Positions 4,992 through 29,673 of a stretch of DNA of 64,000 nt are shown piece by piece. This DNA is from Roseicyclus mahoneyensis. GTDB taxonomy: Bacteria > Pseudomonadota > Alphaproteobacteria > Rhodobacterales > Rhodobacteraceae. The translations under genes were made by a program, and so were the position numbers. The notes beneath the pieces are model-generated. The model saw nothing but the letters and a program-made list of their open reading frames with translations, searched no databases and was not told the origin of the DNA. How positions within the stretch are numbered: position 1 is the first letter of the stretch; every line of letters begins with the position of its first letter. Location of the stretch: positions 62,001 through 126,000 of the forward strand of contig NZ_QGGW01000008.1 in NCBI RefSeq assembly GCF_003148775.1, read 5' to 3'.

Positions 4992-5638
4992 TGAACCCCC
5001 GCCCGACCGAGACCGGAGCGGCGGTGGCCCATGACCGGGTCTATCGCGCGCTCAGGACCCGGATCATGCATGGCGAGGTGGGGCCGGGCGAGGCGATGAC
5101 GCTGCGCGGCCTTGGCGCGGAATTCGGCGTGTCGATGACGCCCGCGCGCGAGGCGGTGCGGCGGCTGGTGAGCGAGGGCGCGCTGTTCCTGTCGGCCTCG
5201 GGCCGCGCCTCCACCCCCGAACTGTCCAATGAGCGCATCGAGGAACTGGCGGCCCTGCGCGCGCTTCTGGAGCCGGAACTCGCCGCCCGCGCGCTGCCCC
5301 GCGCCCATCCCGCGCTGATCGAGCGTATGGAGGCGATCAACGCCACCATCGGGCAGGCGATCGCGCGTCGGGACGCCGTGGCCTACATCAAGCGCAACCT
5401 CGAGTTTCATCGCACGCTCTACCTGCGTGCTCAGGCGCCCGCGATGCTGGCGCTGACAGAAACGGTGTGGCTGCAGCTGGGGCCGACGATGCGGGCGCTC
5501 TATGGGCGGCTGAACCGGACGGAACTGCCGCAGCACCACCGGTTGATCGTGGCAGCGCTGAAGGCCGGGGACGAGCCGGGGCTCAGGCTGGCGGTGCGAG
5601 CGGATGTGACGCAAGGCTTGCGGCTCTTGGCGGGGTAG
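4985..5638 (+). CDS. GntR family transcriptional regulator, FCD (FadR-like) subfamily
   Basis: A 217-residue regulator. The N-terminal winged helix-turn-helix includes LGAEFGVSMTPAREAVRRL at about residues 36-54. The helical FCD effector domain follows, with LRALLEPELAARA, the metal-ligand-like RNLEFHRTLY and QHHRLIVAALKAGD. FCD regulators usually sense small carboxylates or sugar acids. It overlaps the YgjP-like gene by 7 bases and is followed by a long hairpin. Its operator cannot be identified from sequence. It is one possible, unproven, candidate for the palindromes near sucC and sdhC. Confidence 0.9.
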   Translation: MLMNPRPTETGAAVAHDRVYRALRTRIMHGEVGPGEAMTLRGLGAEFGVSMTPAREAVRRLVSEGALFLSASGRASTPELSNERIEELAALRALLEPELAARALPRAHPALIERMEAINATIGQAIARRDAVAYIKRNLEFHRTLYLRAQAPAMLALTETVWLQLGPTMRALYGRLNRTELPQHHRLIVAALKAGDEPGLRLAVRADVTQGLRLLAG

Positions 5639-5741: not shown

Positions 5742-6083
5742 TCAGAGGGACATGAGGTGGCTGTCGGGCAGCCAGCCTGTGGTGCCTTGAGGTGTTTCGC
5801 AAAGTGACCAGCCGTTCAGGCGCAGGAGGCGGACGACGGGAGTGCCTGCTGCAATTGTCAGCTCGGTGCTGTCGAAATCTGCTGTCGCGCAGCCGTCTAC
5901 CACCAGCCCCTCGGGCAGCCAGCCGCCGAGGCCCTCGGCATTGGTGGTCCAGCGCCAGCCGGGGTTGTCGGGGTCGGTGTGGTGGGAGGCGAGGCGTTGG
6001 CCCCGCGCCACGCTGAGCGCGGGGGTGTAGCTGGCCTGCCAGTCCTGCGTGAGGGTGGCGCGCTCAGGCGTGGATCGCGCCAT
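5742..6083 (-). CDS. Small SH3-like tandem domain protein
   Basis: A 113-residue protein with two short SH3-like beta units. Each ends in a Trp-rich turn: [20 protein letters not shown], and later [19 protein letters not shown]. There is no signal peptide, so it is probably cytosolic. Its ATG at 6083 lies inside the 3' end of lpdA (20-base overlap), pointing to translational coupling. It is the last gene of the suc-lpd cluster. Its role is unknown. Confidence 0.75.
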
Positions 6084-7452
6084 CGCCGCAAGCCAGCGCC
6101 GCCTCGCGCACCGCCTCGGAATAGGTCGGGTGGGCGTGGCAGGTCAGCGCGAGGTCTTGCGCGCTTGCGCCGAATTCCATCGCCACGCAGACCTCGTGGA
6201 TCAGGTCGCCCGCCATCGGCCCGATGATATGGGCGCCAAGGATGCGGTCGGTTTCCTTGTCGGCGAGGATCTTGACGAAGCCGTCGCCCGAGAAATTGGC
6301 CTTGGCCCGCCCGTTGCCCATGAAGGAGAACTTGCCGACCTTGTAGGCGCGACCGTCCTTCTTGACGCTTTCCTCGGTGGCACCGACCGATGCCACCTCG
6401 GGGTGGGTGTAGATCACGCCGGGGATCACGCCGTAGTTCACATGGCCATGTTTTCCCGCGACCACCTCGGCCACGGCCATGCCTTCATCCTCGGCCTTGT
6501 GGGCCAGCATTGGGCCCACGATGGCATCGCCGATGGCGTAGATGCCCTTGATGTTGGTGGCATAATGGCTGTCGGTGGCGATCTGGCCGCGGTCGGTCAT
6601 CTTGACGCCGAGCGCCTCGAGGCCGAGGCCGTCGACGTAAGGCTTGCGGCCGGTAGCGACGAGGACGGTGTCGGCCTCTACGATGTGGGTGCTGTCGTCC
6701 TTGCGGAGCTTATAGGTGACCTTGGCGCCGCTTTTGGCCGTGTCCACGGATTGCACGGCGGCGCCGAGCGTGAAGGCAAGCCCTTGTTTTGAAAGGATGC
6801 GCTGGAAGGTCTTGGACACTTCGGCGTCCATGCCGGGCGTGATGTGGTCGAGATATTCGATCACCTGCACCTCGGCGCCCAGACGGGCATAGACGGAGCC
6901 AAGCTCCAGCCCGATGACGCCCGCGCCGATCACGACCAACTTTTTCGGGATCTTGGCCAGCTCCAGCGCGCCTTCGGAGGTCACGACGGTTTTCTCGTCG
7001 ATCTCGATGCCGGGGAGCGCCGATGGCGTGGAACCCGTTGCGATGATGATGGTTTTCGCCTCATGCGTGTCGTCGCCGACGCGGACCTTGCCCGCCTCGG
7101 GGATGGAGCCCCAGCCCTTGAGCCACGTGATCTTGTTCTTCTTGAACAAGAACTCGATGCCCTTGGTGTTCTGGGCGATCACGTCATCCTTGTAGGCCAG
7201 CATCTGTTTCCAGTCGACCGACGGCGACTTTCCCTTGAGGCCCATGGCGGCGAAATTGTGTTCGGCCTCGTGCAGCATGTGGGAGGCGTGCAGCAAGGCC
7301 TTGGAGGGGATGCAGCCGATGTTGAGGCAGGTGCCGCCCAGCGTCTCGCGCCCCTCGACGACGGCGGTTTTCAGGCCGAGCTGCGCGCAGCGGATGGCGC
7401 AGACATAGCCGCCGGGGCCGGAGCCGATGATGATGACGTCATAGCTGGACAT
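6064..7452 (-). CDS. lpdA: Dihydrolipoyl dehydrogenase (E3)
   Basis: A 462-residue FAD flavoprotein that re-oxidises the lipoyl groups of 2-oxoglutarate dehydrogenase E2, reducing NAD. The FAD-binding GSGPGG is at residues 10-15. The redox-active disulfide is C42/C47 in [17 protein letters not shown] second Rossmann motif ([20 protein letters not shown]) lies mid-protein, and the C-terminal catalytic HAHPTYSE is present. A strong AGGAGG lies upstream of the ATG. Being in the suc cluster makes it the OGDH-associated E3 rather than the pyruvate-complex copy. Confidence 0.97.
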
Positions 7453-8413: not shown

Positions 8414-9916
8414 TCACAGATCCATCAAGAGCCGCCGCGGATCCTCCAGCGCTTCCTTTACCCGCACAAGGAACGTCACCGCGCCCTTGCCGTCCACGAC
8501 GCGGTGGTCGTAGCTGAGCGCCAGATACATCATCGGGCGGATCACGATCTGACCAGCCACGACCATCGGCCGGTCCTGGATCTTGTGCATGCCCAAGATG
8601 CCAGATTGCGGCGGGTTGAGGATGGGCGAGGACATCAGCGAGCCGTAGACACCGCCGTTGGAGATGGTGAAGGTGCCGCCCTGCATCTCGGCCATCGACA
8701 GCTTGCCGTCGCGGGCGCGGCGGCCTTTCTCGGCGATTTCCTTTTCCAGATCGGCAAAGGATTTCTGGTCGGCGTCGCGGATGACCGGCACGACGAGGCC
8801 CTGCGGCGTGCCCGCCGCGATCCCCATGTGGACGAAGTTCTTGTAGACGATATCGGTGCCGTCGATCTCGGCGTTGACCTCGGGGACCTCGCGCAGCGCG
8901 TGGACGCAGGCCTTGGTGAAGAAGGACATGAAGCCCAGCCGCGCGCCGTGCTTTTTCTCGAACAGGTCCTTGTATTCGTTGCGCAGGTCCATGACGCCGG
9001 TCATGTCCACCTCGTTGTAGGTGGTCAGCATCGCGGCGGTGTTCTGCGCGTCCTTGAGGCGGCGGGCGATGGTCTGGCGCAGGCGGGTCATCTTGACCCG
9101 TTCCTCGCGGGCGGCATCCTCGGCCGGGCTGGGGGCGCGCTGCGCGCTGGCCATGGGGGCGGGGGCTGCGGCCACGGGCGCGGGGCTTGAGGCGGCTTTC
9201 ATCACGTCTTCCTTCATGATCCGCCCGTCGCGGCCGGTGCCCTGCACCTGCGCAGGCGTAAGGCCCTTTTCGGCCATCAGTTTCTGCGCTGCGGGGGCGT
9301 TTTCGATATCCTTGCTGGTCGCCGCTGCTGCAGGCGCGGCGGCGGCGGTGGGCGCGGGCGCTGCGGCTGCAGCGGAGGCACCGCCGATGACGCCAAGCTT
9401 GCCCGAAGCCTCGACCGTCGTGCCCTCGGGGGCGAGGATTTCGGTCAGCACGCCTGCGGCCGGGGCGGGCACCTCGACCGAGACCTTGTCGGTTTCCAGC
9501 TCGCACAGCATCTCGTCTTGCGCGACGGTGTCGCCGACCTTCTTGAACCAGGTCGAGACGGTTGCCTCGGTCACGGACTCGCCAAGGGTCGGCACCATGA
9601 CGGTGACGGCCTTTCCCTCGGGGGCGGCGGCGGCTTTGCCGGGGGCCTCGGCTTTGGCCTTGGCGGGGGCGGCACTCGTGCCTTCGGTCAATGTGGCGAG
9701 CAGCGCGTTGACGCCGACCGTTTCGCCCTCGGCGGCGACGATGTCGCCAAGGGTGCCTGCGGCGGGCGAGGGAACCTCGACCGTCACCTTGTCGGTTTCC
9801 AGCTCGCACAGCATTTCGTCGATGGCGACGGTATCGCCGGGCTTCTTGAACCAGGTGGCGACGGTGGCTTCGGTGACGCTTTCGCCCAGGGTGGGCACGC
9901 GGACTTCTATGGACAT
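8414..9916 (-). CDS. sucB: Dihydrolipoyllysine succinyltransferase, 2-oxoglutarate dehydrogenase E2
   Basis: A 500-residue E2 core enzyme that transfers succinyl groups from lipoate to CoA. It carries two tandem lipoyl domains, with lipoyl lysines at K43 and K144, each in ELETDKV(T/S)VEV. An Ala/Pro-rich linker separates them. A peripheral-subunit-binding domain ([20 protein letters not shown]) precedes the catalytic domain, which ends with [12 protein letters not shown]. Most proteobacterial E2o proteins have one lipoyl domain and about 400 residues, so this one carries an internal duplication. It starts 4 bases after the sucA stop. Confidence 0.97.
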
Positions 9917-9920: not shown

Positions 9921-12881
9921 TTACCCTTCGATGGTCAGCGCGTCGTTCACGAGCGCGGTTTGTTGGGCCTTGTGCATACTGGCAAGCCCCGTGGCGGGCG
10001 AGGCGCTGGCCGCACGTCCGGCATAGCGGGGGCGGGTGTGTTTCGCACCGATCCGGGTCAGGACCCATTCGAGGTTCGGCTCGACAAAGGACCATCCGCC
10101 CTGGTTCTTGGGCTCTTCTTGGCACCATACGATTTCGGCACCCTTGAAGCGTTCCAACTCCTTCATCAGCGCCAGCGCGGGGAAGGGATAGAACTGTTCC
10201 AGCCTGAGCAGGTAAACATCGGTGATGCCGCGATTGTCGCGTTCTTCCAGAAGATCGTAATAGACCTTGCCCGAGCAGATCACGACGCGACGGATCTTGT
10301 CATCCGATGCCAGCACGGTGTCGGAATGGCCTTTTTCGGCGTCATCCCAAAGCACCCGGTGGAAGCTGGAGCCGGTGGTGAAATCCTCGGCATCCGAAAT
10401 CGCCAGCTTGTGACGCAGCAGTGATTTGGGCGTCATCAGCACCAGCGGCTTGCGGAAGCTGCGGTGGATCTGGCGGCGCAGGATGTGGAAGTAGTTGGCG
10501 GGCGTGGTGCAGTTGGCCACGATCCAGTTGTCCTCGGCGCACATCTGCAAGAAGCGTTCAAGACGTGCGGAGGAGTGTTCAGGCCCTTGCCCCTCGAAGC
10601 CGTGAGGGAGCAGCATGACAAGGCCCGACATGCGCAGCCATTTGCGTTCGCCCGACGAGATGAACTGGTCGAACATGATCTGCGCGCCATTGGCGAAATC
10701 GCCGAACTGCGCCTCCCACATCGTCAGGGCGTTGGGTTCGGCAAGGCTGTAGCCGTATTCGAAACCAAGGACGGCGTATTCAGAGAGCGCGCTGTCGATC
10801 ACCTCGTAGCGGCTTTGGCCTTCGCGGACATGGTTGAGCGGGTAGTAGCGGTCTTCGGAATCTTGCTCGACCAGCGCGGAATGGCGCTGGCTGAAGGTGC
10901 CGCGCGCGCTGTCCTGACCGGCCAGACGCACCGGGTAGCCTTCGGTCAGAAGGCTGCCAAAGGCCAGCGCCTCGGCGGTGGCCCAATCGAAGCCGTGGCC
11001 GGTCTTGAACATCTCGGCTTTGGTTTCCAGCAGGCGCGCGACCGTCTTGTGCAGGTTGAAGCCATCGGGCGCGGTGGACAGCGCGCGACCGACCTCGGCC
11101 ATGGTCTCGGGCCGAATCGCGGTCTCGCCGCGCTGGTATTCCTCGCCCTCGCGGTTGAGGTGCGACCAGCGGCCATCGAGCCAATCGGCCTTGTTGGGCT
11201 TGTAATCCTTGCCGGCCTCGAATTCCTCGTTCAGGCGGGCCTGAAACGCGGCTTTCGCATCCTCGATCTCACCTTCGGGGATCAGACCATCCTTGACCAG
11301 CCGTTCGGTATAAAGCTGCAGCGTGGTCTTTTGCGTTTTGATCTTCTTGTACATCACCGGGTTGGTGAAATTCGGCTCGTCGCCTTCGTTGTGGCCGAAG
11401 CGGCGGTAGCAGAAGATGTCGAGCACCACGTCCTTGCCGAATTTCTGCCGGAACTCGGTGGCGACGCGTGCGGCATGGACCACGGCCTCGGGGTCATCGC
11501 CGTTGACGTGGAAGATGGGCGCCTCGACCATCAGGGCGATGTCGGTCGGGTAGGGGCTCGACCGGCTGAAATGCGGCGCGGTGGTGAAGCCGATCTGGTT
11601 GTTCACCACGATGTGCATGGTGCCGCCGGTGCGGTGGCCCCGGATGCCCGAGAGCTGGAACCCTTCGGCGACGATGCCCTGACCGGCAAAGGCCGCATCG
11701 CCGTGCAGCAAGATCGCCATGACGCGGCGGCGTTCACTGTCGCCCATCTGGTCTTGCTTGGCGCGGACCTTGCCCAGAACAACGGGGTTCACCGCCTCGA
11801 GGTGGGAGGGGTTGGCCGTCAGCGACAGGTGCACGCGGTTGCCGTCGAATTCCCGGTCGCTGGATGCCCCGAGGTGGTATTTCACGTCGCCAGACCCGTC
11901 GACATCCTCGGGCTTGAAGCTGCCGCCCTGAAACTCGTTGAAGATCGCGCGGTAGGGCTTGCCCATCACATTGGCCAGAACCGACAGACGGCCGCGGTGG
12001 GGCATGCCGATGACGATTTCCTGCAGACCCAGCGCGCCGCCGCGCTTGATGATCTGTTCCATCGCGGGGATCAGCGCCTCGCCGCCGTCAAGGCCGAAAC
12101 GCTTGGTGCCCATGTATTTGACGTGCAGGAATTTTTCGAAACCCTCGGCCTCGACCAGCTTGTTCAGGATCGCCTTGCGGCCCTGCTTGGTGAACTGGAT
12201 TTCCTTGCCATAGCCCTCGATCCGCTCCTTGAGCCAGGCGGCCTGTTCGGGGTCGGAGATGTGCATGTATTGCAGCGCGAAGGTGCCGCAGTAGGTCCGC
12301 TTCACGATCTCGACGATCTGGCGCATGGAGGCCATCTGCAGACCCAGCACGTTGTCGATGAAGATCGGGCGATCCATGTCGGCCTCGGTGAAGCCGTAGG
12401 ATTTGGGATCAAGTTCGGGGTGTGGCGTGGTTTCGCGCATGCCCAGCGGGTCGAGATCGGCAACCAGATGCCCGCGGATGCGGTAGGCGCGGATGATCAT
12501 CAACGCGCGGATACTGTCGAGCACGGCGCGCTGGATCTGCGCGTCGGTGACTTCCACGCTTTTTTCTTGCGCCTTGGCCTTGATCTTGTCGCCCGCACCC
12601 TTGATCTCGGCGGCGGCCTGGGGCCATTCGCCGGTCAGCGCGTTGGTCAGGTCATCCGAGGGCGTGGGCGGCCAATCGCGGCGCGCCCAGCTTGGCCCTT
12701 GCGCCTCGGCCTGTGCGTCCTGCGCGCTGTCACCAAGGGCCGCGAAAAACGCGCGCCACGCCTCGTCGACCGCGTTCGGGTCGCGGGCGTATTGGGCATA
12801 GAGCTGTTCCAGATAGGCCGCGTTGTGGCCTTGCATGAAGCTGGAGGCGTGGAACTGGTCGTTCGGGCTCTGGTCGGTCAT
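9921..12881 (-). CDS. sucA: 2-oxoglutarate dehydrogenase E1 component
   Basis: A 986-residue thiamine-diphosphate enzyme that decarboxylates 2-oxoglutarate and succinylates E2 lipoate. The N-terminus has the E2-binding-like segment [20 protein letters not shown]. The ThDP region reads [20 protein letters not shown] followed by NNQIGFTT. The C-terminal transketolase-like half has [21 protein letters not shown] chose the ATG at 12881 (MTDQSPND), which has AAGGTG upstream, over the longer frame from 12914. It follows the sulfotransferase gene by 35 bases. Confidence 0.97.
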
Positions 12882-13603: not shown

Positions 13604-13810
13604 GACTAAATTTCCTTTTTCAGACACCAGGTCGGGCAGTTCTTTCGCTTGTTAGGCGAAGGTTTCTTGATGTCGCGTGCGGTGTGGCATCGAATGACGC
13701 TCGAAGCGTATAACCGCCATTTGGAGCTTGGATTGGCCAATTGTGCACCTGACTTGGGTTGAGCGCCCGGACGGGATCACTTGCCGCCCGGGGATGTGTG
13801 GGTTCTCTTG

Positions 13811-14692
13811 TCAGCCGATCGCCTTCAGCACGGCCTCGCCAAGGCCTGCGGGGCTGTCGGCCACCACGATGCCTGCGACTTTCATCGCCTCGATCTTGCT
13901 TTCCGCATCACCCTTGCCGCCGGCGACGATGGCGCCAGCATGGCCCATGCGGCGGCCCGGAGGGGCGGTCCGGCCGGCGATGAAGCCGGCGGTGGGCTTC
14001 CAGCGGCCGCGCTTTTTCTCGTCGGCGAGGAATTGGGCGGCTTCTTCTTCGGCCGATCCGCCGATTTCGCCGATCATGATGATCGAATGGGTCTCGGGGT
14101 CGGCCAGGAACATTTCCAGCACGTCGAGATGTTCGGTGCCCTTGATCGGGTCGCCGCCGATGCCCACGGCGGAGGATTGGCCGAGGCCCACGTCGGAGGT
14201 CTGTTTCACAGCCTCATAGGTCAGCGTTCCCGAGCGGGACACAACGCCCACCGACCCGCGCCGGAAGATGGAGCCGGGCATGATGCCGATCTTGCAGGCA
14301 TCGGGCGTCATAACGCCGGGGCAGTTGGGCCCGATGAGCCGCGATTTCGACCCTTCCAGCGCGCGCTTGACCTTCATCATGTCGAGCACCGGGATGCCTT
14401 CGGTGATGCACACGATCAGTTCCATCTCGGCGTCGATCGCCTCGAGGATGCTGTCGGCGGCGAAGGGCGGGGGCACGTAGATCGCGGTGGCGTTGGCGTG
14501 GGTCGCATGCTTGGCCTCATGGACCGAATCGAACACCGGCAGGTTCAGGTGGGTCGAGCCGCCCTTTCCGGGCGTCACGCCGCCGACCATCTTGGTGCCA
14601 TAGGCGATGGCCTGTTCCGAATGGAACGTGCCCTGTGAGCCGGTGAAGCCTTGGCAGATCACCTTGGTGTTTTCGTCGACGAGGACAGCCAT
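13811..14692 (-). CDS. sucD: Succinate-CoA ligase, alpha subunit
   Basis: A 293-residue subunit that binds CoA and carries the phosphohistidine of succinyl-CoA synthetase, coupling succinyl-CoA to ATP or GTP formation. Features are the N-terminal [14 protein letters not shown], the CoA-binding Rossmann region, [10 protein letters not shown], and the active-site histidine in [17 protein letters not shown] near the C-terminus. The ATG at 14692 has an AAGGAG 9 bases upstream. The longer frame from 14737 would run into the preceding small gene. Confidence 0.97.
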
Positions 14693-14986: not shown

Positions 14987-16180
14987 TCAGCCCTTGACCG
15001 CTTTCACGATCTTTTCCGCCGCGTCCGACAGGTTGTCGGCGGCGATGACGTTGAGGCCGGAGGCGTTGATGATCTCCTTGCCCTTCTCGACGTTGGTGCC
15101 CTCGAGGCGGACTACAAGCGGGACTTGAAGGCCGACTTCCTTGACGGCGGCCACCACGCCCTCGGCGATGATGTCGCAGCGCATGATGCCGCCGAAGATG
15201 TTCACCAAGATGCCCTTCACGTTGGGGTCGGAGGTGATGATCTTGAAGGCTTCGGTCACCTTTTCGCGGGTGGCCGAGCCGCCCACGTCGAGGAAGTTGG
15301 CGGGTTCCGAGCCATAGAGCTTGATGATGTCCATCGTCGCCATGGCAAGGCCCGCGCCGTTGACCATGCAACCGATCTGACCGTCGAGCGCGATGTAGTT
15401 GAGGTCATACTTGGAGGCCGCCAGTTCCTTGGGGTCTTCCTCGGTCTCGTCGCGCAGGGCTGCGATATCGGCATGGCGGTAGACCGCGTTGCCGTCGAAA
15501 CCGACCTTCGCGTCGAGCACCTTGAGGCTGCCCTCGTCGGTGACGATCAGCGGGTTGATCTCCAGCATCTCCATGTCTTTTTCGGTGAAGGCCTTGTAGA
15601 GCAGGCCCATCAGGGACACGCATTCCTTGACTTGCTTGCCGGTGAGGCCCAGCGAAAAGGCGACGCGGCGGCCATGGAAAGACTGGTAGCCGGTGGCCGG
15701 ATCGACCGAGAAGGACAGGATCTTTTCGGGCGTGTGGGCCGCGACCTCTTCGATGTCCATGCCGCCCTCGGTGGAGCAGACAAAGGAGATGCGGCTGGTC
15801 TGGCGATCCACCAGAAGGGCCAGATACATCTCGCGCTCGATGCCCGAGCCGTCTTCGATGTAGATGCGGTTGACCTGCTTGCCGGCGGGGCCGGTCTGGT
15901 GGGTGACGAGGGTGCGGCCGAGCATGCGCTTGGCTTCCTCGGCGGCTTCCTCGACGGATTTCGTCAGGCGCACACCGCCCTTTTCGCCGGCGTCGGCTTC
16001 CTTGAACTTGCCCTTGCCGCGGCCGCCGGCATGGATCTGAGCCTTGACCACCCAGAGCGGGCCGTCCATTTCGCCTGCCGCCGTCTTGGCTTCTTCGGCC
16101 CGCATGACAACGCGGCCATCGCTGACCGGTGCGCCGTATTGGCGAAGCAGCGCCTTCGCCTGGTATTCATGAATGTTCAC
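14987..16180 (-). CDS. sucC: Succinate-CoA ligase, beta subunit
   Basis: A 397-residue nucleotide- and succinate-binding subunit. The conserved start [20 protein letters not shown] fixes the GTG at 16180 as initiation codon; the frame is open for another 60 codons but these have no family match and cover the operator region. The ATP-grasp segment includes [20 protein letters not shown], and later [12 protein letters not shown] and FGGIMRCD. It is the first suc gene after the paired palindromes at 16291-16321. Confidence 0.97.
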
Positions 16181-16290
16181 GAAACTGTCCCGTCGTTGGT
16201 GGAGTTTGGTCAGGGCATAAGCACAACCGACGCGGGCAATAAACCGGCTTTGTGCCGCAGGAGCAGGGTTTTCGGGAAAAAAGCGACATT

Positions 16291-16321
16291 TGTGATCACA
16301 GGCTGAAAACGTGTGATCACA
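16291..16321. promoter_or_regulatory. Paired TGTGATCACA operator upstream of sucC
   Basis: Two perfect 10-bp palindromes TGTGATCACA, at 16291-16300 and 16312-16321, lie 21 bp apart centre to centre (two helical turns), 111-141 bases before the sucC start. The same pair with the same spacing lies upstream of sdhC (23647-23677), in the same orientation relative to the gene, with partly matching spacer (TTTCA). This strongly suggests one transcription factor. A weak -10-like TATGCC (minus strand, 16219-16214) would put the sites in an activator-type upstream position. Confidence 0.8.
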
Positions 16322-16363
16322 AGCTGCCGATGTTAGTGGTATGCAATCGTATCCCGGCACGAC

Positions 16364-17608
16364 TCAGGTGGGTTTCGTCCCGGTCGCACGGGCCGCGATC
16401 TGCATCATGAGGCGTGTTGCAAGCGCCATGTCCTGCACCGACACGAATTCGAGCGGGCCGTGCACATTCTGCATGCCGGTGAACAGATTGGGGCAGGGCA
16501 CGCCCATTTCCGTCAGCCGCGAGCCATCGGTGCCGCCGCGGATCACGGCCTCGATCGGCTCATGTCCCAGATCGCGCAGCGCGTCGCGGGCAAGATCGAC
16601 GGGCGTCATGTCATCCTCCAGCCAGTAGCGCATGTTGCGGTATTGCGGCGTGATCTGCACGTCGATTTTCGCGCGCGGTTCGGTGGCGGCGATGGCGGCG
16701 CAGACCTGCCTGACCAGATCGCCCTTGGCGGCCAGCCCGTCACGTTCGAAATCGCGCAAGATCAGCCGCAGCACCATCTGGTCGGCGCTGCCCTTCATGT
16801 CGACGGCGTGGATGAAGCCTTCGCGGAGCGATGTGGTCTCGGGCGTCATGGTCGCCTGGGGGAGCGTTTCGACGATGCGGGAGGCGAGGTGGATGGCGTT
16901 CACCAGCTTGCCCGTCGCCTCGCCGGGATGGATCGAGACGCCGGTGATGGTGACGACCGCGAAATCGGCGCTGAAGGTCTCGTAGACGATCTCGCCCGCG
17001 TCGCCGCCGTCGAAGGTATAGGCGAAATCGACGCCCAGATCGGCGGGCAGGCGTTTATCGACGCCGCGCCCTATTTCTTCATCGGGGGTGAAGGCGATGC
17101 GGATCGTGGGGCGCGGCAGGTCGGGGTTTTCGATCAGGTGGCGGGCGGCGGTCATGACGATGGCGATGCCCGCCTTGTCATCAGCGCCCAGCAGCGTGAG
17201 GCCCGAGGCGGTCACGATATCCTCGCCGATCTTGGTGGCGAGGTATGGGAAATCCTCGGGGGTGAGCGTCAGGTCGGGGGCGTCCGGGAAAGTGATCGCG
17301 CCGCCGTTGTAGCCGCGGATGACGCGGGGTTTGACGCCGGTGGCGTTGAATTGCGGGGCGGTATCGACATGGGCGAGAAAGCCGATGGTGGGGCCGGGGC
17401 GGTTGCCGGGAATGGTGGCCAGCACCGTGCCATAGGGGGTTTTGGTCACATCCGCCGCGCCGATCTCTTGCAATTCCTGCACCATCAGGTCGAGCATCGC
17501 GTGCTGGATCGCGGTCGAAGGTTGGGCGGGGCTGTCCATGTCGGACTGGCTGTCGATGGCGGCGTAACGGGTAAGGCGGGTTTCCAGCTCATGGTCGAAA
17601 TCGCGCAT
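16364..17608 (-). CDS. pepT: Peptidase T (tripeptide aminopeptidase)
   Basis: A 414-residue cytosolic M20-family dizinc aminopeptidase that removes N-terminal residues from tripeptides. The first zinc ligand is in FLAHVDTAPQFN, the bridging Asp in LLGADDKAGIA, and the catalytic Glu pair in FTPDEEIGRGVD; FDGGDAGEIVYE and RGGTDGSRL follow. Length matches the family. It lies within the mdh-suc run on the same strand, but its function is unrelated to the TCA cycle. Confidence 0.95.
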   Translation of the reverse strand: MRDFDHELETRLTRYAAIDSQSDMDSPAQPSTAIQHAMLDLMVQELQEIGAADVTKTPYGTVLATIPGNRPGPTIGFLAHVDTAPQFNATGVKPRVIRGYNGGAITFPDAPDLTLTPEDFPYLATKIGEDIVTASGLTLLGADDKAGIAIVMTAARHLIENPDLPRPTIRIAFTPDEEIGRGVDKRLPADLGVDFAYTFDGGDAGEIVYETFSADFAVVTITGVSIHPGEATGKLVNAIHLASRIVETLPQATMTPETTSLREGFIHAVDMKGSADQMVLRLILRDFERDGLAAKGDLVRQVCAAIAATEPRAKIDVQITPQYRNMRYWLEDDMTPVDLARDALRDLGHEPIEAVIRGGTDGSRLTEMGVPCPNLFTGMQNVHGPLEFVSVQDMALATRLMMQIAARATGTKPT

Positions 17609-17670
17609 GTGGGGCTCCTGTCGAGGTTGGGGGGATCAGGGACGCGAGATCGCGGGATGTCAACGGGGGG

Positions 17671-17736
17671 CGGAAATCTGCAGATTTCCGTTTGGAAAAA
17701 CTGCAGTTTTTAGGAGCGTTTTCCTGCAGGAAAACG
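17671..17736. repeat. Three perfect CTGCAG-centred palindromes at 23-bp period
   Basis: CGGAAATCTGCAGATTTCCG (17671-17690), AAAAACTGCAGTTTTT (17696-17711) and CGTTTTCCTGCAGGAAAACG (17717-17736) are each perfect. All are centred on TGCA, with centres 17680.5, 17703.5 and 17726.5, exactly 23 bp apart. They fill the gap between the methyltransferase stop and pepT start. They could be terminator stems on the minus strand or a cooperative operator array. The arm sequences differ while centre and spacing are kept. Confidence 0.85.
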
Positions 17737-17740
17737 TATC

Positions 17741-18400
17741 TCACGCCCGGAACAGGACCTGTCCGCGCGGCAGGCGGTCAGGCTGGCGTTCCAGCGTCAG
17801 GCCCGCAGCATCGGCCATGCCCCGCAGCGCCGTCTCGGTCAGGTGCCACGGCGGCCGGTCGGGGTGGGTGACGACGCCATCGGGCTGGCGCAGGCTTTCG
17901 CCGGCGTGATCTTCGGGTGCCAGAAAGACGGTGAACAGCAAAACGCGGGGCTCGGGCCAGCGGCGGGCGATCCGGGCCAGTGCATGGGCGGTTTGTCCGG
18001 GGGGCAGGTGGGTGAAGAGGCCGAAGGCGATGAGGCAATCGACGCGGAGCGGCAGGTTTGGGAAGGCGAAATCGGCATCTTCGACCAGTCGATCCTCGGG
18101 CAGACGGTCGGGGTCCGGCAGTTCCATCTCGCGGCCGCGCAGCATGAGGGCGCGGCTGGCGTCGGTCGCCCAGTAATGACCGGGATCGAGGTAGGGGACG
18201 GCCTTACAGCCCAAGCGCAGCGATCCCGCGCCGATGTCGAGAAGCGTTTGGTTGGGCTGCAGGCCGTGGGCCTGCAAAAGCGCCATTTGCAGCCGCCCGG
18301 TTTCGTCCCAGCGGCCGCCGACGATATCGCGGTGACGGCCATCACGGAGCGCGCGGTCGTAGAAGCCGGACACGAGATAGGGAGAGGGCGCGCGCGTCAT
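17741..18400 (-). CDS. Class I SAM-dependent methyltransferase
   Basis: A 219-residue Rossmann methyltransferase. The SAM-binding motif I is TLLDIGAGSLRLGCKAVPYL at about residues 53-72, preceded by a conserved region (YDRALRDGRHRDIVGGRWDE). Acidic motif II follows near WATDAS, and FGLFTHLPP fits motif IV. The substrate is unknown. It follows mdh by 43 bases on the same strand, so it is probably co-transcribed, and it ends at the triple palindrome. Confidence 0.82.
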   Translation of the reverse strand: MTRAPSPYLVSGFYDRALRDGRHRDIVGGRWDETGRLQMALLQAHGLQPNQTLLDIGAGSLRLGCKAVPYLDPGHYWATDASRALMLRGREMELPDPDRLPEDRLVEDADFAFPNLPLRVDCLIAFGLFTHLPPGQTAHALARIARRWPEPRVLLFTVFLAPEDHAGESLRQPDGVVTHPDRPPWHLTETALRGMADAAGLTLERQPDRLPRGQVLFRA

Positions 18401-18443
18401 GGGGTGCGGCGGCCCCTCGGTCCGGGGGCCGCCGCGAGGTGCA

Positions 18444-20317
<1,874 letters not shown>

Positions 20318-20325
20318 ACCATGGT

Positions 20326-20658
20326 CTACATCGGTTCACCGGCGGGCAGGGCGGCGATGGCTTCGTAATGCTGCCCCGAGGCCATCAAGCAGGTGATCCC
20401 GTCGACCGAGGTGACAGTGATTGTCCAGCTTCCGGTCTCGGACGACGCGAACACCTCCACGATGCGGGTCTGACCTGCAAGGCCGACCGCGCGGACCTGT
20501 TCGCCGAACCGCGCGCGCAATTGGCCCACGATCTGGGCGCGCTGGCCGCAGATCATCGACCCCGCGCCCTGCGCATAGCCCGCCCCGGCCAGCGGGACGG
20601 TCGTGGTGGCAGTGGCCAGAAGGATCGTCATCGCCCGGAAACGCAGTTCCTGTGTCAT
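20326..20658 (-). CDS. Small secreted protein, function unknown
   Basis: A 110-residue protein with a Sec signal peptide (MTILLATATTTVPLAGAGYA, cleavage likely after AGYA, about residue 29). The mature part has two cysteines (ICGQ and ITCLM) that could form a disulfide, and a RARFGEQVRAVGL region. I recognise it as a short periplasmic hypothetical type common in Rhodobacteraceae. The start at 20658 has AAAGGCACCGGG upstream. It converges with tauE and diverges from mcl2. Confidence 0.75.
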   Translation of the reverse strand: MTQELRFRAMTILLATATTTVPLAGAGYAQGAGSMICGQRAQIVGQLRARFGEQVRAVGLAGQTRIVEVFASSETGSWTITVTSVDGITCLMASGQHYEAIAALPAGEPM

Positions 20659-20837
20659 CCCGGTGCCTTTCCCGGTTTGGGGCGCAGGGGGGCGTTCGCG
20701 GCCCCGCTGAGCCGGTCTCGAACATCGCGCCTGTCGGACGGGCGCCTCTGATCCACAGGCTGCCGTGGCGCGGTTAATATCGGATGAAGGATGCGCGGGT
20801 CGTTTTCTTGCGCCCAAGACCCCCGCGACGCAATTTT

Positions 20838-20877
20838 TTTGCTGCGACGCGGCGCAATGATCTTGCCATCGCGGCAA
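20838..20877. promoter_or_regulatory. TTGC/GCAA inverted repeats upstream of mcl2
   Basis: In the 273-base gap before mcl2, TTGCC-ATCGC-GGCAA (20863-20877) is a perfect inverted repeat. Just before it, TTGC (20838-20841) and GCAA (20853-20856) form a second, wider pair after a run of T. A regulator of the acetyl-CoA assimilation genes could bind here. The rest of the gap shows no gene. Confidence 0.35.
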
Positions 20878-20931
20878 AGCTGTGGTCCCTCAGGCGTCCA
20901 GACGCCCCCCGCACCTGCAAGGAGATGGCCC

Positions 20932-21807
20932 TTGGACACCCTCGAAATCCGCGCGCGACCCTACCGATCGGTCCTCTACATTCCCGCGTCCAAGGACCGG
21001 GCGATCGAAAAGGCCAAGGGCCTTGCCGCAGATGCGATCATCTTCGACCTCGAGGATGCGGTTGCCGTCGAGGAAAAGGCCCATGCGCGCGATCTGCTGA
21101 CCGCGCGGCTGACCGAGGGAGGATTCGGCAACAGGGCGTTGATGGTGCGGATCAATGGGCTCGACACGCCATGGGGCGAGGATGACCTGAGCGCCGTCAT
21201 GGCCATCGGCCCGCAGGCGATCTTGCTGCCCAAGGTCGGCTCGGTGACCGAGGTCGCGGCGCTGGCCGCGCGTCTGCACGGGGCGGCCGCGACACGGAAC
21301 ACGCAGATCTGGGCGATGATGGAGACGCCCATGGGCATCTTGAACGCGGCCGAGATCGCGCGCGCGCCGCGCATGACGGGCTTTGTGATGGGCACCAATG
21401 ATCTGGCCAAGGAACTGGGCTGCCGCACGCGGGGCGCGATGCACATGGCGTTGCAACACTGTCTGCTGGCGGCGCGGGCCGCGGGCATCCTCTGCATCGA
21501 CGGGGTCTACAACGCCTTTCGGGATGAGGAAGGGCTGGCGGTCGAATGTGCCGAGGGGCGCGATTTCGGCTTTGACGGCAAGACCCTGATCCACCCGTCT
21601 CAGATCGCCATCGCCAACACCGCTTTCGCCCCGAGCCAAGCCGAGATAGACCTTGCCCGCCGCCAGATCGCGGCATTCGAGGCGGCGACGGCCCAAGGTC
21701 AGGCGGTGGCGGTGGTCGACGGGCAGATCGTGGAAAATCTGCATGTCGACACGGCGCGTGCCACGCTGGCCAAGGCAGACGCCATAGCACGGCAGGAGGC
21801 TGCGTGA
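20932..21807 (+). CDS. mcl2: (3S)-malyl-CoA thioesterase, HpcH/HpaI citrate-lyase family
   Basis: A 291-residue enzyme of the citrate-lyase beta family. Motifs are RSVLYIPASKDRAIEKAKG, IIFDLEDAVAVEEKA (metal-binding Glu/Asp), LLPKVGSV, MMETPMGILNA and LIHPSQIAIAN. In Rhodobacter sphaeroides the paralogue Mcl2 hydrolyses (3S)-malyl-CoA to malate in the ethylmalonyl-CoA route and lies next to mdh and sdh, as here. The likely start is a TTG at 20932, seven bases after AAGGAG; no in-frame ATG fits. The stop overlaps nnrU by one base. Confidence 0.85.
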   Translation: MDTLEIRARPYRSVLYIPASKDRAIEKAKGLAADAIIFDLEDAVAVEEKAHARDLLTARLTEGGFGNRALMVRINGLDTPWGEDDLSAVMAIGPQAILLPKVGSVTEVAALAARLHGAAATRNTQIWAMMETPMGILNAAEIARAPRMTGFVMGTNDLAKELGCRTRGAMHMALQHCLLAARAAGILCIDGVYNAFRDEEGLAVECAEGRDFGFDGKTLIHPSQIAIANTAFAPSQAEIDLARRQIAAFEAATAQGQAVAVVDGQIVENLHVDTARATLAKADAIARQEAA

Positions 21808-22361
21808 TGGGCTACATTCTACTGATCCTCGGGATCGCACTGTTCGCGGGCGGGCATTGGGTCAAGCGGCTGGTGCCTGAAAAACGCGCCGCATGGGGCG
21901 ACAAGGGCAAGGGCGTCCTGGCTCTCGCCATGCTCGCTGGCATCGTGCTGATGGTGGTGGGCTACCGCAGCGCGGACGTGGTGAACCTTTGGTTCCCGCC
22001 CGCCTTCATGACCCATATCGCCAATCTGCTGGTGCTGATCGGCTTTTGGTTCTTTGCGCTGTCCTCGATCAACGGGACCATGGCGGCAAAGGTGCGCCAC
22101 AAGCAGTTGACCGGCGTCAAGGCATGGGCGGTCGCGCATCTGCTGGTGAACGGCGATCTGGCCTCGGTGATCTTGTTTGGCGGCATGCTGGCATGGGCTG
22201 TCGTGTCGGTCATCCTGATCAACCGGGCGAACCGCAGCTGGGACCGGCCCGCCAATGTCAGCGTCAAGAACGACGCGATCGCCTTTGGTGTGGGCCTTGT
22301 CCTTTATGGCATCGTCGCGGCCATCCACACCTGGCTTGGCTATTACCCTTTCCCTGCGTGA
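21807..22361 (+). CDS. NnrU family membrane protein
   Basis: A 184-residue inner-membrane protein with five or six helices. The start GYILLILGIALFAGGHWVKR and the central HIANLLVLIGFWFF match NnrU, a family first linked to nitrite and nitric-oxide reduction genes in Rhodobacter. Related proteins also include carotenoid isomerase partners (Z-ISO). There are no denitrification genes nearby. It starts at ATG 21807 in the overlap TGATG with mcl2, with GGAGG just upstream. Confidence 0.85.
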   Translation: MGYILLILGIALFAGGHWVKRLVPEKRAAWGDKGKGVLALAMLAGIVLMVVGYRSADVVNLWFPPAFMTHIANLLVLIGFWFFALSSINGTMAAKVRHKQLTGVKAWAVAHLLVNGDLASVILFGGMLAWAVVSVILINRANRSWDRPANVSVKNDAIAFGVGLVLYGIVAAIHTWLGYYPFPA

Positions 22362-22368
22362 GGCATCC

Positions 22369-22572
22369 ATGAAGATCTATCGCCTGCTGACCGAGGATGA
22401 CACCTCGGCCTTCTGCCACAAGGTGTCCGAGGCGCTGTCGAAGGGCTGGGTGCTGCACGGCGACCCGGTGATGTCCTTTGACGCGGCCCGCGGCGTGATG
22501 CGTTGCGGGCAGGCCGTGACCAAGGAGATCGACGCGGCCTACAGCCCCGACATGAAGCTGGGCGCGCAATAG
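22369..22572 (+). CDS. DUF1737 domain protein
   Basis: A 67-residue protein beginning MKIYRLLTEDDTSAFCHKVS, with the typical EALSKGWVLHGDPVMSFD pattern of the short DUF1737 family. The function is unknown. It is placed between nnrU (7-base gap) and mch (1-base gap) in a compact run, so all are probably co-transcribed. No signal peptide or membrane segment is seen. Confidence 0.85.
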   Translation: MKIYRLLTEDDTSAFCHKVSEALSKGWVLHGDPVMSFDAARGVMRCGQAVTKEIDAAYSPDMKLGAQ

Positions 22573-22573
22573 C

Positions 22574-23629
22574 ATGGCCAAGGATATTGGACATGCCACC
22601 AAGACCAATCCCGGCCGGTTTTTCGAGGATTACCGGCTGGGCGAGGTGATCGAACACGCGGTGCCGCGCACCGTGTCAGGGGGCGAGCGGGCGCTTTACC
22701 ATGCGCTTTATCCGGCGCGGCATGCGCTCTATTCCTCGGATGAATTCGCGCGGACCTGCGGGCTGCCTACCAGCCCTGTCGATGACATGATCACCTTTCA
22801 CACGGTGTTCGGGAAATCGGTTCCCGACATCTCGCTGAACGCGGTGGCCAATCTGGGCTATGCGGAGGGGCGGTTTCACCAGCCGGTCTATCCGGGCGAC
22901 ACGCTGCAGGCCACGTCGCAGGTGATCGGCCTCAAGCAGAATTCCAACGGCAAGACCGGGGTGGTCTATGTCCGCACCGAAGGGCGCAACCAGCATGGCT
23001 CTGTCGTGCTGGATTATGTCCGCTGGGTGATGGTGCGCAAGCGCGACGAAGGGGCGGCGGCGCCCGATCCTGTGGTGCCGGATTTGGCATCCGTCGTCGA
23101 CCCTGCGACGCTGATCTTGCCCGAGGGTTTGGATTTCACCCATTACGACCTGACTTTGGCCGGTGAACGCCACCGCTTGGGCGATTACGCGGTGGGCGAG
23201 GTGATCGACCATGTCGATGGCGTGACGATCGAGGAAGCCGAGCACATGATGGCCACGCGGCTGTGGCAAAACACGTCGAAGACCCATTTCGACGTGACGC
23301 CCCGCGCCGATCGGCGGCGGCTGATCTATGGGGGCCACGTCATGTCGATGGCCCGCGCGCTCAGTTTCAACGGGCTGGCCAATGCGCAGATGATCGCGGC
23401 GATCAATGGCGGCAGCCACGCCAATCCCTGTTTCGCGGGCGACACCCTGAGGGCATGGTCCGAGGTGCTTGCGACCGCGCCGACGGCAGCGCCGGGGGTG
23501 GGGGCGATCCGATTGCGGCTGGTTGCGGTGAACGAGGACGGACGAGCAGGCGCGTTGAAGGATGCGGCGGGCAAATACCTGCCGCATGTGCTGCTCGACC
23601 TCGACTACTGGGCCTTGATGCCTGTCTGA
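22574..23629 (+). CDS. mch: Mesaconyl-CoA hydratase (double MaoC domain)
   Basis: A 351-residue enzyme with two hotdog (MaoC) halves, residues about 10-165 and 195-340. The N-terminal GRFFEDYRLGEVIEHAVPRTV, the hydratase stretch FHQPVYPGDTL and the second-half FAGDTLRAWSEVL are visible. In Rhodobacter the orthologue hydrates mesaconyl-CoA to beta-methylmalyl-CoA in the ethylmalonyl-CoA pathway and lies beside sdh, as here. It ends 18 bases before the twin operator upstream of sdhC. Confidence 0.92.
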   Translation: MAKDIGHATKTNPGRFFEDYRLGEVIEHAVPRTVSGGERALYHALYPARHALYSSDEFARTCGLPTSPVDDMITFHTVFGKSVPDISLNAVANLGYAEGRFHQPVYPGDTLQATSQVIGLKQNSNGKTGVVYVRTEGRNQHGSVVLDYVRWVMVRKRDEGAAAPDPVVPDLASVVDPATLILPEGLDFTHYDLTLAGERHRLGDYAVGEVIDHVDGVTIEEAEHMMATRLWQNTSKTHFDVTPRADRRRLIYGGHVMSMARALSFNGLANAQMIAAINGGSHANPCFAGDTLRAWSEVLATAPTAAPGVGAIRLRLVAVNEDGRAGALKDAAGKYLPHVLLDLDYWALMPV

Positions 23630-23646
23630 TCGTGATGCCTACATTT

Positions 23647-23677
23647 TGTGATCACGGATTTCAAGGCTGTGATCACA
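23647..23677. promoter_or_regulatory. Paired TGTGATCACA operator upstream of sdhC
   Basis: TGTGATCACG (23647-23656) and TGTGATCACA (23668-23677) are 21 bp apart centre to centre, identical in layout to the pair before sucC. They end 138 bases before the sdhC start and about 60 bases before a possible -35 element. This position fits an activator more than a repressor that blocks polymerase. Confidence 0.8.
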
Positions 23678-23736
23678 AAGCTCTGATCTGCGGCGTTTGG
23701 ACCCAAGATCACGCAGCGAATCCGCGACGCTTGCTG

Positions 23737-23764
23737 GTGACAGCGCGGCAAAACGCGCTATGCA
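23737..23764 (+). promoter_or_regulatory. Possible sigma-70 promoter of the sdh operon
   Basis: GTGACA (23737-23742), a 16-base spacer and TATGCA (23759-23764) lie between the twin palindromes and sdhC. Both hexamers deviate from consensus, as expected for an activated promoter. The assignment is by eye. Confidence 0.4.
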
Positions 23765-23815: not shown

Positions 23816-24199
23816 ATGGCCGACGTGAACCGGGGAAACCGGCCGCTTTCCCCGCATCTGACGATCTACCGCCCGCAGCTGAACTCCATCACTTCAATCT
23901 TCGTACGCATCACCGGCAACGGGTTGATCGTGGGCGCGATCCTCGTCGTGTGGTGGCTGATGGCGGCGGCCTCGGGTGCTGCCTATTTCGATACCATCGA
24001 CGGTCTGATGACCTCGGTCCTTGGTGACATCGTGATGACGCTGTCGGTTCTGGCGCTGTGGTACCACGCGCTGGGCGGCGTGCGGCACCTGATCTGGGAC
24101 ACGGGTCGCGCGCTGGATGTCGAGACGTCCGACAAGCTGGGCTGGGGCATGATCATCGGGTCGGTCGTGCTGACCGCGCTGACCGTGGTCGTGATCTGA
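23816..24199 (+). CDS. sdhC: Succinate dehydrogenase cytochrome b556 subunit
   Basis: A 127-residue membrane anchor of complex II with three helices. The N-terminal signature is RPLSPHLTIYRPQLNSITSI, and the heme-ligand histidine region is ALWYHALGGVRHLIWD. It helps bind ubiquinone and heme b. GGAAGGG lies upstream of the ATG at 23816. The stop overlaps the next possible ATG; sdhD starts 12 bases further on. Confidence 0.97.
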   Translation: MADVNRGNRPLSPHLTIYRPQLNSITSIFVRITGNGLIVGAILVVWWLMAAASGAAYFDTIDGLMTSVLGDIVMTLSVLALWYHALGGVRHLIWDTGRALDVETSDKLGWGMIIGSVVLTALTVVVI

Positions 24200-24210
24200 T
24201 GGAGGGCAAG

Positions 24211-24582
24211 ATGGCCTATGTGACCGACCGCAAGCGCGTGACCGGCCTTGGCTCCGCCAAGAGCGGCACCGAACATCACTGGGCGATGACCGTCACCTCG
24301 GTCGCGCTGCTGATCCTGACGCCGTTTTTCCTGTGGATCGTGGGTGGCCTGCTGGGCCAGCCGCATGAGGCGGTGGTGGCCAGCCTGTCGCGCCCGATAC
24401 CTGCGTTGATCGTGGGCGCTTTCCTTGTCGTCGGACTGCACCATATGCGACTGGGCATGCAGGTGCTGGTCGAGGATTACCTGCGCGGCCTTGGCCGCAA
24501 GATCGGCCTGATCGTGACCACCATCCTGTGCTACGCGCTGGCCGCGGGCGGGGTTGTGGCGCTGGCGCAGATTGCACTTTGA
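24211..24582 (+). CDS. sdhD: Succinate dehydrogenase membrane anchor subunit
   Basis: A 123-residue second membrane anchor with three helices ([20 protein letters not shown], about 70-85, and [19 protein letters not shown]). The conserved [14 protein letters not shown] supplies the heme-side histidine and quinone-site residues. I chose the ATG at 24211 (MAYVTDRKR) because GGAGG is 6 bases upstream; the in-frame ATG at 24199 overlaps that site. Confidence 0.95.
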
Positions 24583-24589
24583 GGATCAG

Positions 24590-26410
24590 ATGAAAGATAC
24601 CGTTTCCCCCAGCTACGACCTCAATACCCACAGCTACGACGTTGTCGTGGTCGGTGCCGGCGGCGCGGGCCTGCGCGCCACGCTGGGCATGGCCGAACAG
24701 GGCCTCAAGACCGCTTGCATCACCAAGGTCTTCCCGACCCGCTCGCACACGGTGGCGGCACAGGGCGGCATCGCGGCCAGCCTCAGCAACATGGGGCCAG
24801 ACCATTGGCACTGGCACATGTACGACACCGTCAAGGGGTCGGACTGGCTGGGCGATACCGACGCGATGGAATACCTTGCGCGTGAAGCGCCCAAGGCGGT
24901 TTACGAGCTGGAACATTACGGCGTGCCGTTCTCGCGCACCGAGGATGGCAAGATCTACCAGCGCCCCTTCGGCGGACACACCACCCAATTCGGCGAAGGC
25001 CCCCCGGTGCAGCGCACCTGTGCCGCCGCCGACCGCACCGGCCACGCGATGCTGCACACGCTTTACGGGCAGTCGCTCAAGAACAACGCGGAATTCTACA
25101 TCGAGTATTTCGCCACCGATCTTTTGATGAACGACGAAGGCCAGTGTGTCGGCGTTGTGGCGTGGAAGCTTGACGATGGCACGATGCATGTGTTCCGCGC
25201 CAAGATGGTGGTGCTGGCGACCGGCGGCTATGGCCGGGCCTATTTCTCGGCCACCTCGGCGCATACCTGCACGGGCGATGGCGGCGGCATGGTCGCACGG
25301 CAGGGCCTGCCGCTGCAAGATATGGAATTCGTGCAGTTCCACCCTACCGGCATTTTCGGCGCGGGTTGCCTGATCACCGAAGGCGCGCGGGGCGAGGGCG
25401 GCTATCTCACCAATTCCGAGGGTGAGCGGTTCATGGAACGCTACGCGCCGACCTACAAGGATCTGGCGTCACGCGACGTGGTGAGCCGCTGCATGACCAT
25501 CGAGATCCGCGAGGGCCGTGGCGTGGGCCCGAACAAGGACCATATCCACCTCCACCTCAACCACCTGCCCAAGGAGACGCTCGACCTGCGGCTTCCGGGC
25601 ATTTCCGAGTCGGCGCGGATCTTTGCGGGTGTCGATCTGACGCGCGAGCCGATCCCGGTTCTGCCGACCGTTCATTACAACATGGGCGGCATCCCCACGA
25701 ATTACTGGGGCGAGGTTCTGAACCCCACCGCCAGCGACCCCGACCGCATCGTGCCCGGCCTGATGGCCGTGGGCGAGGCCGGCTGCGCATCGGTTCACGG
25801 GGCAAACCGTCTTGGCTCGAACTCGCTGATCGACCTTGTCGTCTTCGGTCGGGCCGCCGCGATCCGGGCGGGCACCATCGTCGATCCTGACGGCGCTGTG
25901 CCCGATGTCCCGCGCGCCTCACTTGATCATGCGATTTCGCGGTTTGACGATATCCGCCATGCCTCGGGCAATATCTCCACCGCGGAATTGCGGCTGGAGA
26001 TGCAGCGCACGATGCAGGCTGACGCCGCCGTGTTCCGCACGGACAAGACGCTGGCCGAAGGTGTCGAAAAGATGCGCGGCGTCGCCTCCAAGATGGATGA
26101 CATCAAGGTTACGGATCGCTCGATGATCTGGAACTCGGACCTGATGGAAACGCTGGAGCTGACCAACCTGATGCCCAACGCGATGGCCACCATCGTGTCG
26201 GCCGAGGCGCGCAAGGAAAGCCGGGGCGCCCATGCGCACGAGGATTATCCCGACCGCGACGACGTGGAATGGCGCAAGCATTCGCTGGCGACGGTCGACG
26301 GCGAAAAAGTCGATCTGAGCTATCGGCCGGTTCACCTCAACCCGCTGATGGGTCACAACGAGGGCGGCATCGATCTGGAGCGGATCAAGCCAAAGGCGCG
26401 CGTCTATTGA
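24590..26410 (+). CDS. sdhA: Succinate dehydrogenase flavoprotein subunit
   Basis: A 606-residue catalytic subunit that oxidises succinate to fumarate with covalent [12 protein letters not shown] at about residues 22-30 binds FAD. H53 in [15 protein letters not shown] is the histidyl-FAD attachment site. Substrate-site residues lie in [20 protein letters not shown] and [14 protein letters not shown]. It starts 7 bases after sdhD. Unusually, sdhB does not follow directly: three other genes intervene. Confidence 0.98.
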
Positions 26411-27017: not shown

Positions 27018-27022
27018 CGCCC

Positions 27023-27043
27023 GGCGCGCGTGTTCGGCGCGCC
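27023..27043 (+). terminator. Hairpin after the lipoprotein genes
   Basis: GGCGCGC-GTGTTCG-GCGCGCC is a perfect 7-bp stem just after the stop at 27017. There is no T-run, so it may only attenuate or stabilise the upstream sdhCDA message. Confidence 0.4.
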
Positions 27044-27083
27044 ACGCCCCGGCCTGCTTGCAGCCGCGGGGCAGGGATAGCGG

Positions 27084-27111
27084 TTGAAAAGGCGCCTTGC
27101 CCCTATATCCT
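27084..27111 (+). promoter_or_regulatory. Possible sigma-70 promoter for the glycosyltransferase gene
   Basis: TTGAAA (27084-27089), 16 bases, then TATCCT (27106-27111), preceded by the hairpin at 27023 and followed 39 bases later by the ATG. It suggests the glycosyltransferase, and perhaps sdhB, can be transcribed separately from sdhCDA. Confidence 0.45.
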
Positions 27112-28893: not shown

Positions 28894-29673
28894 ATGGTCG
28901 AACTCGCGCTTCCGAAAAACTCCCGCATCCGTACGGGCAAGACGTGGCCCAAGCCCGAGGGGGCGACCAATCTGCGCAAATTCCAGATCTACCGCTGGAA
29001 CCCCGATGACGGTGAAAACCCCCGTGTCGACACCTATTGGGTCGACATGGACACCTGCGGGCCGATGGTTCTGGATGCACTGATCAAGATCAAGAACGAG
29101 ATCGACCCGACGCTGACCTTCCGCCGGTCCTGCCGCGAGGGGATCTGCGGGTCTTGCGCGATGAACATCGACGGCATCAACACGCTGGCCTGCATCTACG
29201 GTATGGACGAGATCAAGGGCGACGTGAAGATTTACCCGCTGCCGCACATGCCGGTGATCAAGGATCTGATCCCCGATCTGACGCATTTCTATGCGCAGCA
29301 TGCCTCGATCATGCCGTGGCTCGAGACCAAGACGCAGCGCCCCGAAAAGGAATGGCGCCAGTCGATCGAGGATCGCAGCAAGCTTGACGGGCTTTATGAA
29401 TGCGTGATGTGCGCCTGTTGCTCGACATCCTGCCCGTCCTACTGGTGGAACGGCGACCGCTACCTTGGGCCGGCGGCCCTGTTACATGCCTACCGCTGGA
29501 TCATCGACTCGCGCGATGAGGCGACCGGCGAGCGGCTGGACGAGCTGGAAGATCCCTTCAAGCTCTACCGCTGTCACACGATCATGAACTGCGCCAAGAC
29601 CTGCCCCAAGGGCCTGAACCCGGCCAAGGCAATCAGTGAGATCAAGAAGCTGATGGTGGAGCGCCAGCACTGA
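28894..29673 (+). CDS. sdhB: Succinate dehydrogenase iron-sulfur subunit
   Basis: A 259-residue electron-transfer subunit of complex II. The 2Fe-2S cluster ligands lie in [22 protein letters not shown], the 4Fe-4S in [18 protein letters not shown], and the 3Fe-4S in [17 protein letters not shown]. Length is normal. It is placed 2.5 kb after sdhA, behind two lipoproteins and a glycosyltransferase, with its own possible regulatory repeats. Confidence 0.98.

Follow-up and report, generated by a model that had tools for sequence, protein, structure and literature searches.

Paired palindromes upstream of the sucC and sdhC operons of Roseicyclus mahoneyensis are probable operators of the GntR-family regulator AkgR

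The closest described system is the AkgR regulon of Rhodobacter sphaeroides. The palindrome GTGATCAC is identified among the binding sites of the activator AkgR (PMC6365646), and a GntR protein, RSP_0981, is the predicted regulator of RSP_0967-6, RSP_0974-6 and RSP_0965-62 (PMC4344238). PS417_07240 of Pseudomonas simiae, a GntR-like protein 32% identical to AkgR, is also proposed to bind GTGATCAC and to regulate deoxyribonate catabolism; it differs in its target genes and in having a single palindrome, which spans -47 to -40 relative to the start codon (PMC6365646). We analysed a 64,000-nucleotide stretch of Roseicyclus mahoneyensis (Rhodobacteraceae; contig NZ_QGGW01000008.1, positions 62,001 to 126,000), called the window below, in which pairs of this palindrome precede sucC and sdhC and which also carries a FadR-type GntR gene, gntR. 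From the sequence, we consider it highly probable that the four palindromes are AkgR operators and that AkgR is the product of gntR, activating suc and sdh from the paired sites and repressing its own gene in most relatives examined. The gene and the four sites are as follows.

4985..5638, + strand: gntR, FadR-type GntR regulator with GntR and FCD domains, proposed AkgR orthologue
16291..16300, - strand: proximal suc operator, exact match to TGTGATCACA
16312..16321, - strand: distal suc operator, exact match to TGTGATCACA
23647..23656, + strand: distal sdh operator, TGTGATCACG, which departs from the palindrome by a single base, a final G
23668..23677, + strand: proximal sdh operator, exact match to TGTGATCACA

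A preliminary description of this DNA had called the twin sites identical. This holds for three of the four, which are exact copies of TGTGATCACA, but not for 23647-23656, where TGTGATCACG differs by one base. All four sites hold the 8-base core GTGATCAC without a mismatch, and 13 bases separate the cores in both pairs. The 21-bp centre-to-centre spacing noted earlier is the same in both pairs and would put the two dimers of a pair on one helix face, with two turns between them; the sites lie 111 to 169 bases upstream of the starts (sucC GTG at 16180, sdhC at 23816), also as described. Exact TGTGATCACA was present in 3 copies in the window, against 0.04 expected from shuffles, and the same three are the only copies in the whole 4.03-Mb genome. 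Single GTGATCAC cores number 86 in the genome, a frequency from which about 0.002 pairs would be expected at any one spacing. Two exact pairs were found; a chance origin was rejected, and the genome gave no sign of a random scatter of the paired motif. The reversed core CACTAGTG, used as a control, occurred twice in the genome versus 86 times for GTGATCAC. This control is too lenient because CACTAGTG, which contains CTAG, is itself rare, and weight was therefore put on the pair expectation and on gene placement.

The pair is widely conserved in the family. An exact GTGATCAC-N3..30-GTGATCAC was found in 267 of 295 family genomes, all of different genera. Among the matches listed, a hand count of the spacers at 75 forward-strand places in 37 genomes gave 13 bases in 65, 12 bases in 5 and other lengths in 5. 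In the loci collected, which were those ranked first in the search lists, all 78 pairs with a spacer of 12 or 13 preceded sucC (42), sdhC (35) or sucA (1), two triple arrays being counted twice. Where the regions were read in 20 relatives, the pair preceded sdhC in 20 and sucC in 19; in G177 it stood before sucA, sucCD being absent from the stretch (G and L numbers are our handles for genomes and loci). The suc and sdh operons are far apart in G093 and G252, and each has its own pair. The scan of relatives thus found the pair conserved upstream of both genes. Furthermore, the proposal of a regulator common to sucCD-sucAB-lpd and sdhCDAB gained support, since the pair precedes these operons in all 20 relatives, including the distant-operon and sucA-first cases. 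In a ten-genome set drawn from 80 loci, at least one exact pair and a gntR 74-77% identical to that of the window were present in 10/10. Three sites in 21-bp register were seen in G395, G396 and G399, and a triple array precedes sucC in both cases in which the gene was checked (L254, L249). Class-wide, the exact pair is rare, being present in 5 of 190 genomes, 3 of those 5 from the same family. A search with up to 2 mismatches matched 389 of 394 genomes, evident chance matches included, and was not relied on. G265 has 10 exact pairs and G135 has 6, most genomes having one to three.

The regulator of the pairs is very probably the product of the window gntR, because gene and sites are usually absent together, because the palindrome lies over the gene's own promoter in most relatives examined, and because in Cereibacter johrii, a near relative of R. 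sphaeroides, the orthologue occupies the place expected for RSP_0981. A gntR orthologue (E<=1e-30) was found in 275 of 295 family genomes. The exact pair was missing from 17 of the 20 genomes without an orthologue versus 11 of the 275 with one (Fisher P 1.3e-17, kinship ignored). At E<=1e-60, orthologue and pair occurred together in 260 genomes, the pair only in 7, the orthologue only in 6 and neither in 22. Of the genomes without an orthologue, 15 had an identifiable sdhC, and in all 15 the best pair carried 5-7 mismatches; in four genomes with a weak gntR match it carried 4-7. A 44-row SdhA tree required 9 changes to account for absence of the orthologue, at least 5 of them on well-supported branches (G096 counted as regulator-bearing). 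With G096 counted as lacking the regulator, regulator presence and pair presence agreed in 41 of 42 rows. The tree excluded SdhA sequences shorter than 500 residues (G256, G040, G157), and G155 and G021, with no sdhC on their loci, were left out of the count of changes. The controls used ygjP, which gntR overlaps in the R. mahoneyensis genome, and the FCD-type GntRs. Among the 17 genomes lacking both gntR orthologue and pair, ygjP was present in 15 (G172 partial only) and FCD-type GntRs in 15; in 17 comparison genomes, both were present in 17/17.

Upstream of gntR itself, GTGATCAC was found close by in 34 of 47 distinct loci (48 rows, C. johrii being present twice; 30 were chosen as the best matches to the protein encoded in the window rather than at random). 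In 24 of the 34 it starts exactly 18 bases past the start of TTGAC. The own-gene site is doubled in G187, with a 5-base spacer, and L103 alone of the four nearest relatives has it. A -10 element at the usual spacing would overlap this operator, and transcription would begin close to the ATG, which makes it likely that AkgR represses its own promoter in most relatives examined, from a single site over the -10 region. Most GntR proteins are repressors, and this own-gene site occupies a repressor position; the same GntR protein might bind the pairs and repress sdh and suc. We regard this as very unlikely. At sdhC, 58-61 bases in conserved helical register separate the sites from the -35 element, an arrangement that suits activation, although the case is less clear for sucC. 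AkgR is also called an activator (PMC6365646).

A different FadR-type GntR might bind the pairs, for example a second GntR protein of the relatives, 35-41% identical to the window gntR, which is present in 9 of 10 of the ten-genome set (G395-G403). At L304 (f15, outside the family), positions 992-1900, a spacer-13 GTGATCAC pair precedes a GntR gene that shares 30% identity with the window gntR; relatives of AkgR may thus share the motif, and its paired form may be characteristic of AkgR-like regulators more broadly. L303, a pair-bearing locus outside the family, gave no match among the query proteins. The involvement of another FadR-type GntR is nevertheless very unlikely. Although the R. mahoneyensis genome has 17 FCD matches, its only match to the gntR protein at E<=1e-30 is the window gene itself; C. 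johrii has the pairs without the 35-41% identical paralogue, and the 34 loci with a site before gntR point to gntR as well. The reading of gntR as AkgR also draws on C. johrii, in which the reaction-centre L protein matches the bait at 100% identity. The gntR orthologue of C. johrii is 75% identical, and one small open reading frame separates it from sdhB, a position that fits RSP_0981. The preliminary description named AkgR and the GntR at 4985-5638 as separate candidates; the two appear to be a single gene.

Several observations weigh against this assignment. The pair occurs with no gntR match in G096, G256 and G264 (77, 93 and 77% complete) and with a weak match only in G019, G033, G114 and G273 (91, 74, 100 and 73% complete). 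G114 in particular is 100% complete and has an exact pair, but a gntR match of just E 6e-33. Conversely, G040, G122, G147, G155, G166 and G291 have the orthologue (E<=1e-60) without an exact pair. The sdhC upstream region was readable in two of these six and held near pairs, with one mismatch in G040 and two in G291. The independent contrasts were too few for significance: four pointed the same way, none the opposite way and one showed no difference (P=0.125). The R. mahoneyensis genome and C. johrii have no own-gene site, and neither do L104-L106. Finally, the comparison with R. sphaeroides was made through the C. johrii protein, taking AkgR to be RSP_0981 and sdhB to be RSP_0979.

That the pairs are sites of a CRP/FNR-type protein or of CceR is extremely improbable. 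The TGTGA and TCACA halves resemble CRP halves. However, CRP-type half-sites stand 6 bases apart and those of FNR 4, whereas TGTGA and TCACA abut here with zero bases between them; measured against this consensus, membership of a CRP/FNR regulon was rejected. CceR is likewise predicted for the R. sphaeroides sdh genes, but its predicted motif, [A/G/T]GTT-N6-8-AAC, is absent from TGTGATCACA (predictions from PMC4344238). The palindromes lack such arms, and a CceR-regulon site was rejected as well.

The R. mahoneyensis system shares with the AkgR regulon of R. sphaeroides a GntR-family regulator, the GTGATCAC motif (with the core exact at all four sites) and the same three predicted target operons. 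These targets (sucCD, sucAB-lpd and sdh) carry the motif here and in 20/20 relatives, with sucA in one. It differs in that gntR adjoins lpd in R. mahoneyensis, not sdhB. With RSP_0981 predicted for these operons and GTGATCAC reported as the AkgR motif, the suc and sdh operons of the window would add a further case to the AkgR regulon already described. Neither the paired 21-bp spacing, the phased A/T tracts and roughly one-turn promoter offset described below, nor the own-gene site was met in the AkgR literature covered, which was partial and did not extend to the original AkgR study; the phased arrangement, together with the own-gene site, appears to be what is new here. Among solved structures, the best match to the window GntR was McbR of Escherichia coli (4p9f, E 1.2e-22, residues 21-212). 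The targets and operator of McbR differ from those of the window system, and no membership is claimed.

The region between operators and genes contains the following putative elements.

23678..23736, + strand: linker from the operators to the sdhC promoter; its A/T tracts are phased in relatives but only weakly visible here
23737..23742, + strand: putative sdhC -35, GTGACA; position conserved in 28/35 promoters
23759..23764, + strand: putative sdhC -10, TATGCA, spacer 16
16244..16290, - strand: linker from the operators to the sucC promoter; phased A/T tracts, e.g. T6 at 16277-16282 and A4 at 16269-16272
16238..16243, - strand: putative sucC -35-like element, TTTATT, in the positional cluster; chosen by eye
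16215..16220, - strand: putative sucC -10, TTATGC, spacer 17; chosen by eye

Across 35 sdhC promoters (relatives and R. mahoneyensis), the GTGAC -35 starts 58-61 bases past the proximal core in 28 and at 69-70, one turn further, in two. In a sigma-70-type scan the sucC promoter was not found by score (mean 8.12 vs 8.05 for shuffled sequences) but by position only: the best -35 starts cluster at 47-49 in 13 of 40, about one turn nearer than in sdhC. The best sucC match in R. mahoneyensis starts elsewhere (79) and not at 16238-16243/16215-16220. The -10 centres had been placed 76 and 86 bp from the proximal site centre; recounting gave 78 bp for sucC and 89 bp for sdhC, and the one-turn difference stands.

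The linker sequence is unconserved (median pairwise identity 0.31-0.33, positions 8-46), but its A/T content is periodic, with a peak every 9.5 bases in sucC and every 10.25 bases in sdhC. Relative to randomly shifted sequences, the 9-12-base power over positions 1-55 was raised 33-fold for sucC (n=40) and 28-fold for sdhC (n=35). This ratio was 4.8 upstream of mdh, 0.9 of mcl, 1.0 of mch, 0.5 of lpd, 2.0 of sdhB and 2.8 of sucA; upstream of the distal site it was 5.5 (sucC) and 1.3 (sdhC), and over positions 60-115 it was 13 for sdhC (promoter included) and 3.1 for sucC (n=8). Several of these controls exceed 1 but stay far below the linkers, and the null ignores kinship. The sucC and sdhC profiles are in register with each other (r 0.68, positions 8-46; when one was shifted against the other, r was 0.69 at 0 and -0.73 at -5). 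In R. mahoneyensis, the tracts of the sdhC linker are only weakly visible. As a separate observation, palindromes of the kind TTAGCGCTAA or GTTAGCGCT, which may be CceR sites, occur in 5 of 35 sdhC and 3 of 40 sucC linkers of relatives; none of this type was found in the R. mahoneyensis linkers.

AkgR reportedly activates several tricarboxylic acid (TCA) cycle genes. In the mechanism we propose, one AkgR dimer would occupy each palindrome, at about -88 and -109 from the putative start for sucC and about -99 and -120 for sdhC, and would activate sucCD-sucAB-lpd and sdhCDAB. AkgR would reach RNA polymerase across 45-60 bases of DNA with A/T tracts at every helical turn, which is probably either bent or touched by the alpha subunits. 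More tentatively, and at slightly less than even confidence, sucC and sdhC may share a family-wide phased enhancer. It would consist of two AkgR dimers (three in some genomes) 21 bp apart, A/T tracts at each turn over about 55 bases, in one register at the two operons, and a promoter at whole-turn steps (about 48, 59 or 69 bases). AkgR, combined with curved DNA or alpha-subunit contacts, would thereby couple three successive TCA steps, while a single own-promoter site would limit the level of AkgR.

The genes of the target operons in the window are listed here.

14987..16180, - strand: sucC, GTG start at 16180
13811..14692, - strand: sucD
9921..12881, - strand: sucA, 2-oxoglutarate dehydrogenase E1
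8414..9916, - strand: sucB
6064..7452, - strand: lpd
23816..24199, + strand: sdhC
24208..24582, + strand: sdhD, start provisional
24587..26410, + strand: sdhA, start provisional
28894..29673, + strand: sdhB

A sulfotransferase-like gene (Pfam Sulfotransfer_2) lies at 12917-13627 between sucD and sucA, and G208 has a weak relative of it (25% identity) in the same position. The gap between sdhA and sdhB (26411-28893, about 2.5 kb) differs in size between relatives and here holds a 567-residue reading frame at 27084-28787, glycosyltransferase-like by eye.

These findings provide a strong candidate regulator for the central TCA operons of R. mahoneyensis. They also suggest that a regulon so far described in a single species extends to most of the family. 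Because operators, A/T tracts and promoters keep a conserved register, a mechanism of long-range activation by a GntR protein becomes directly testable.

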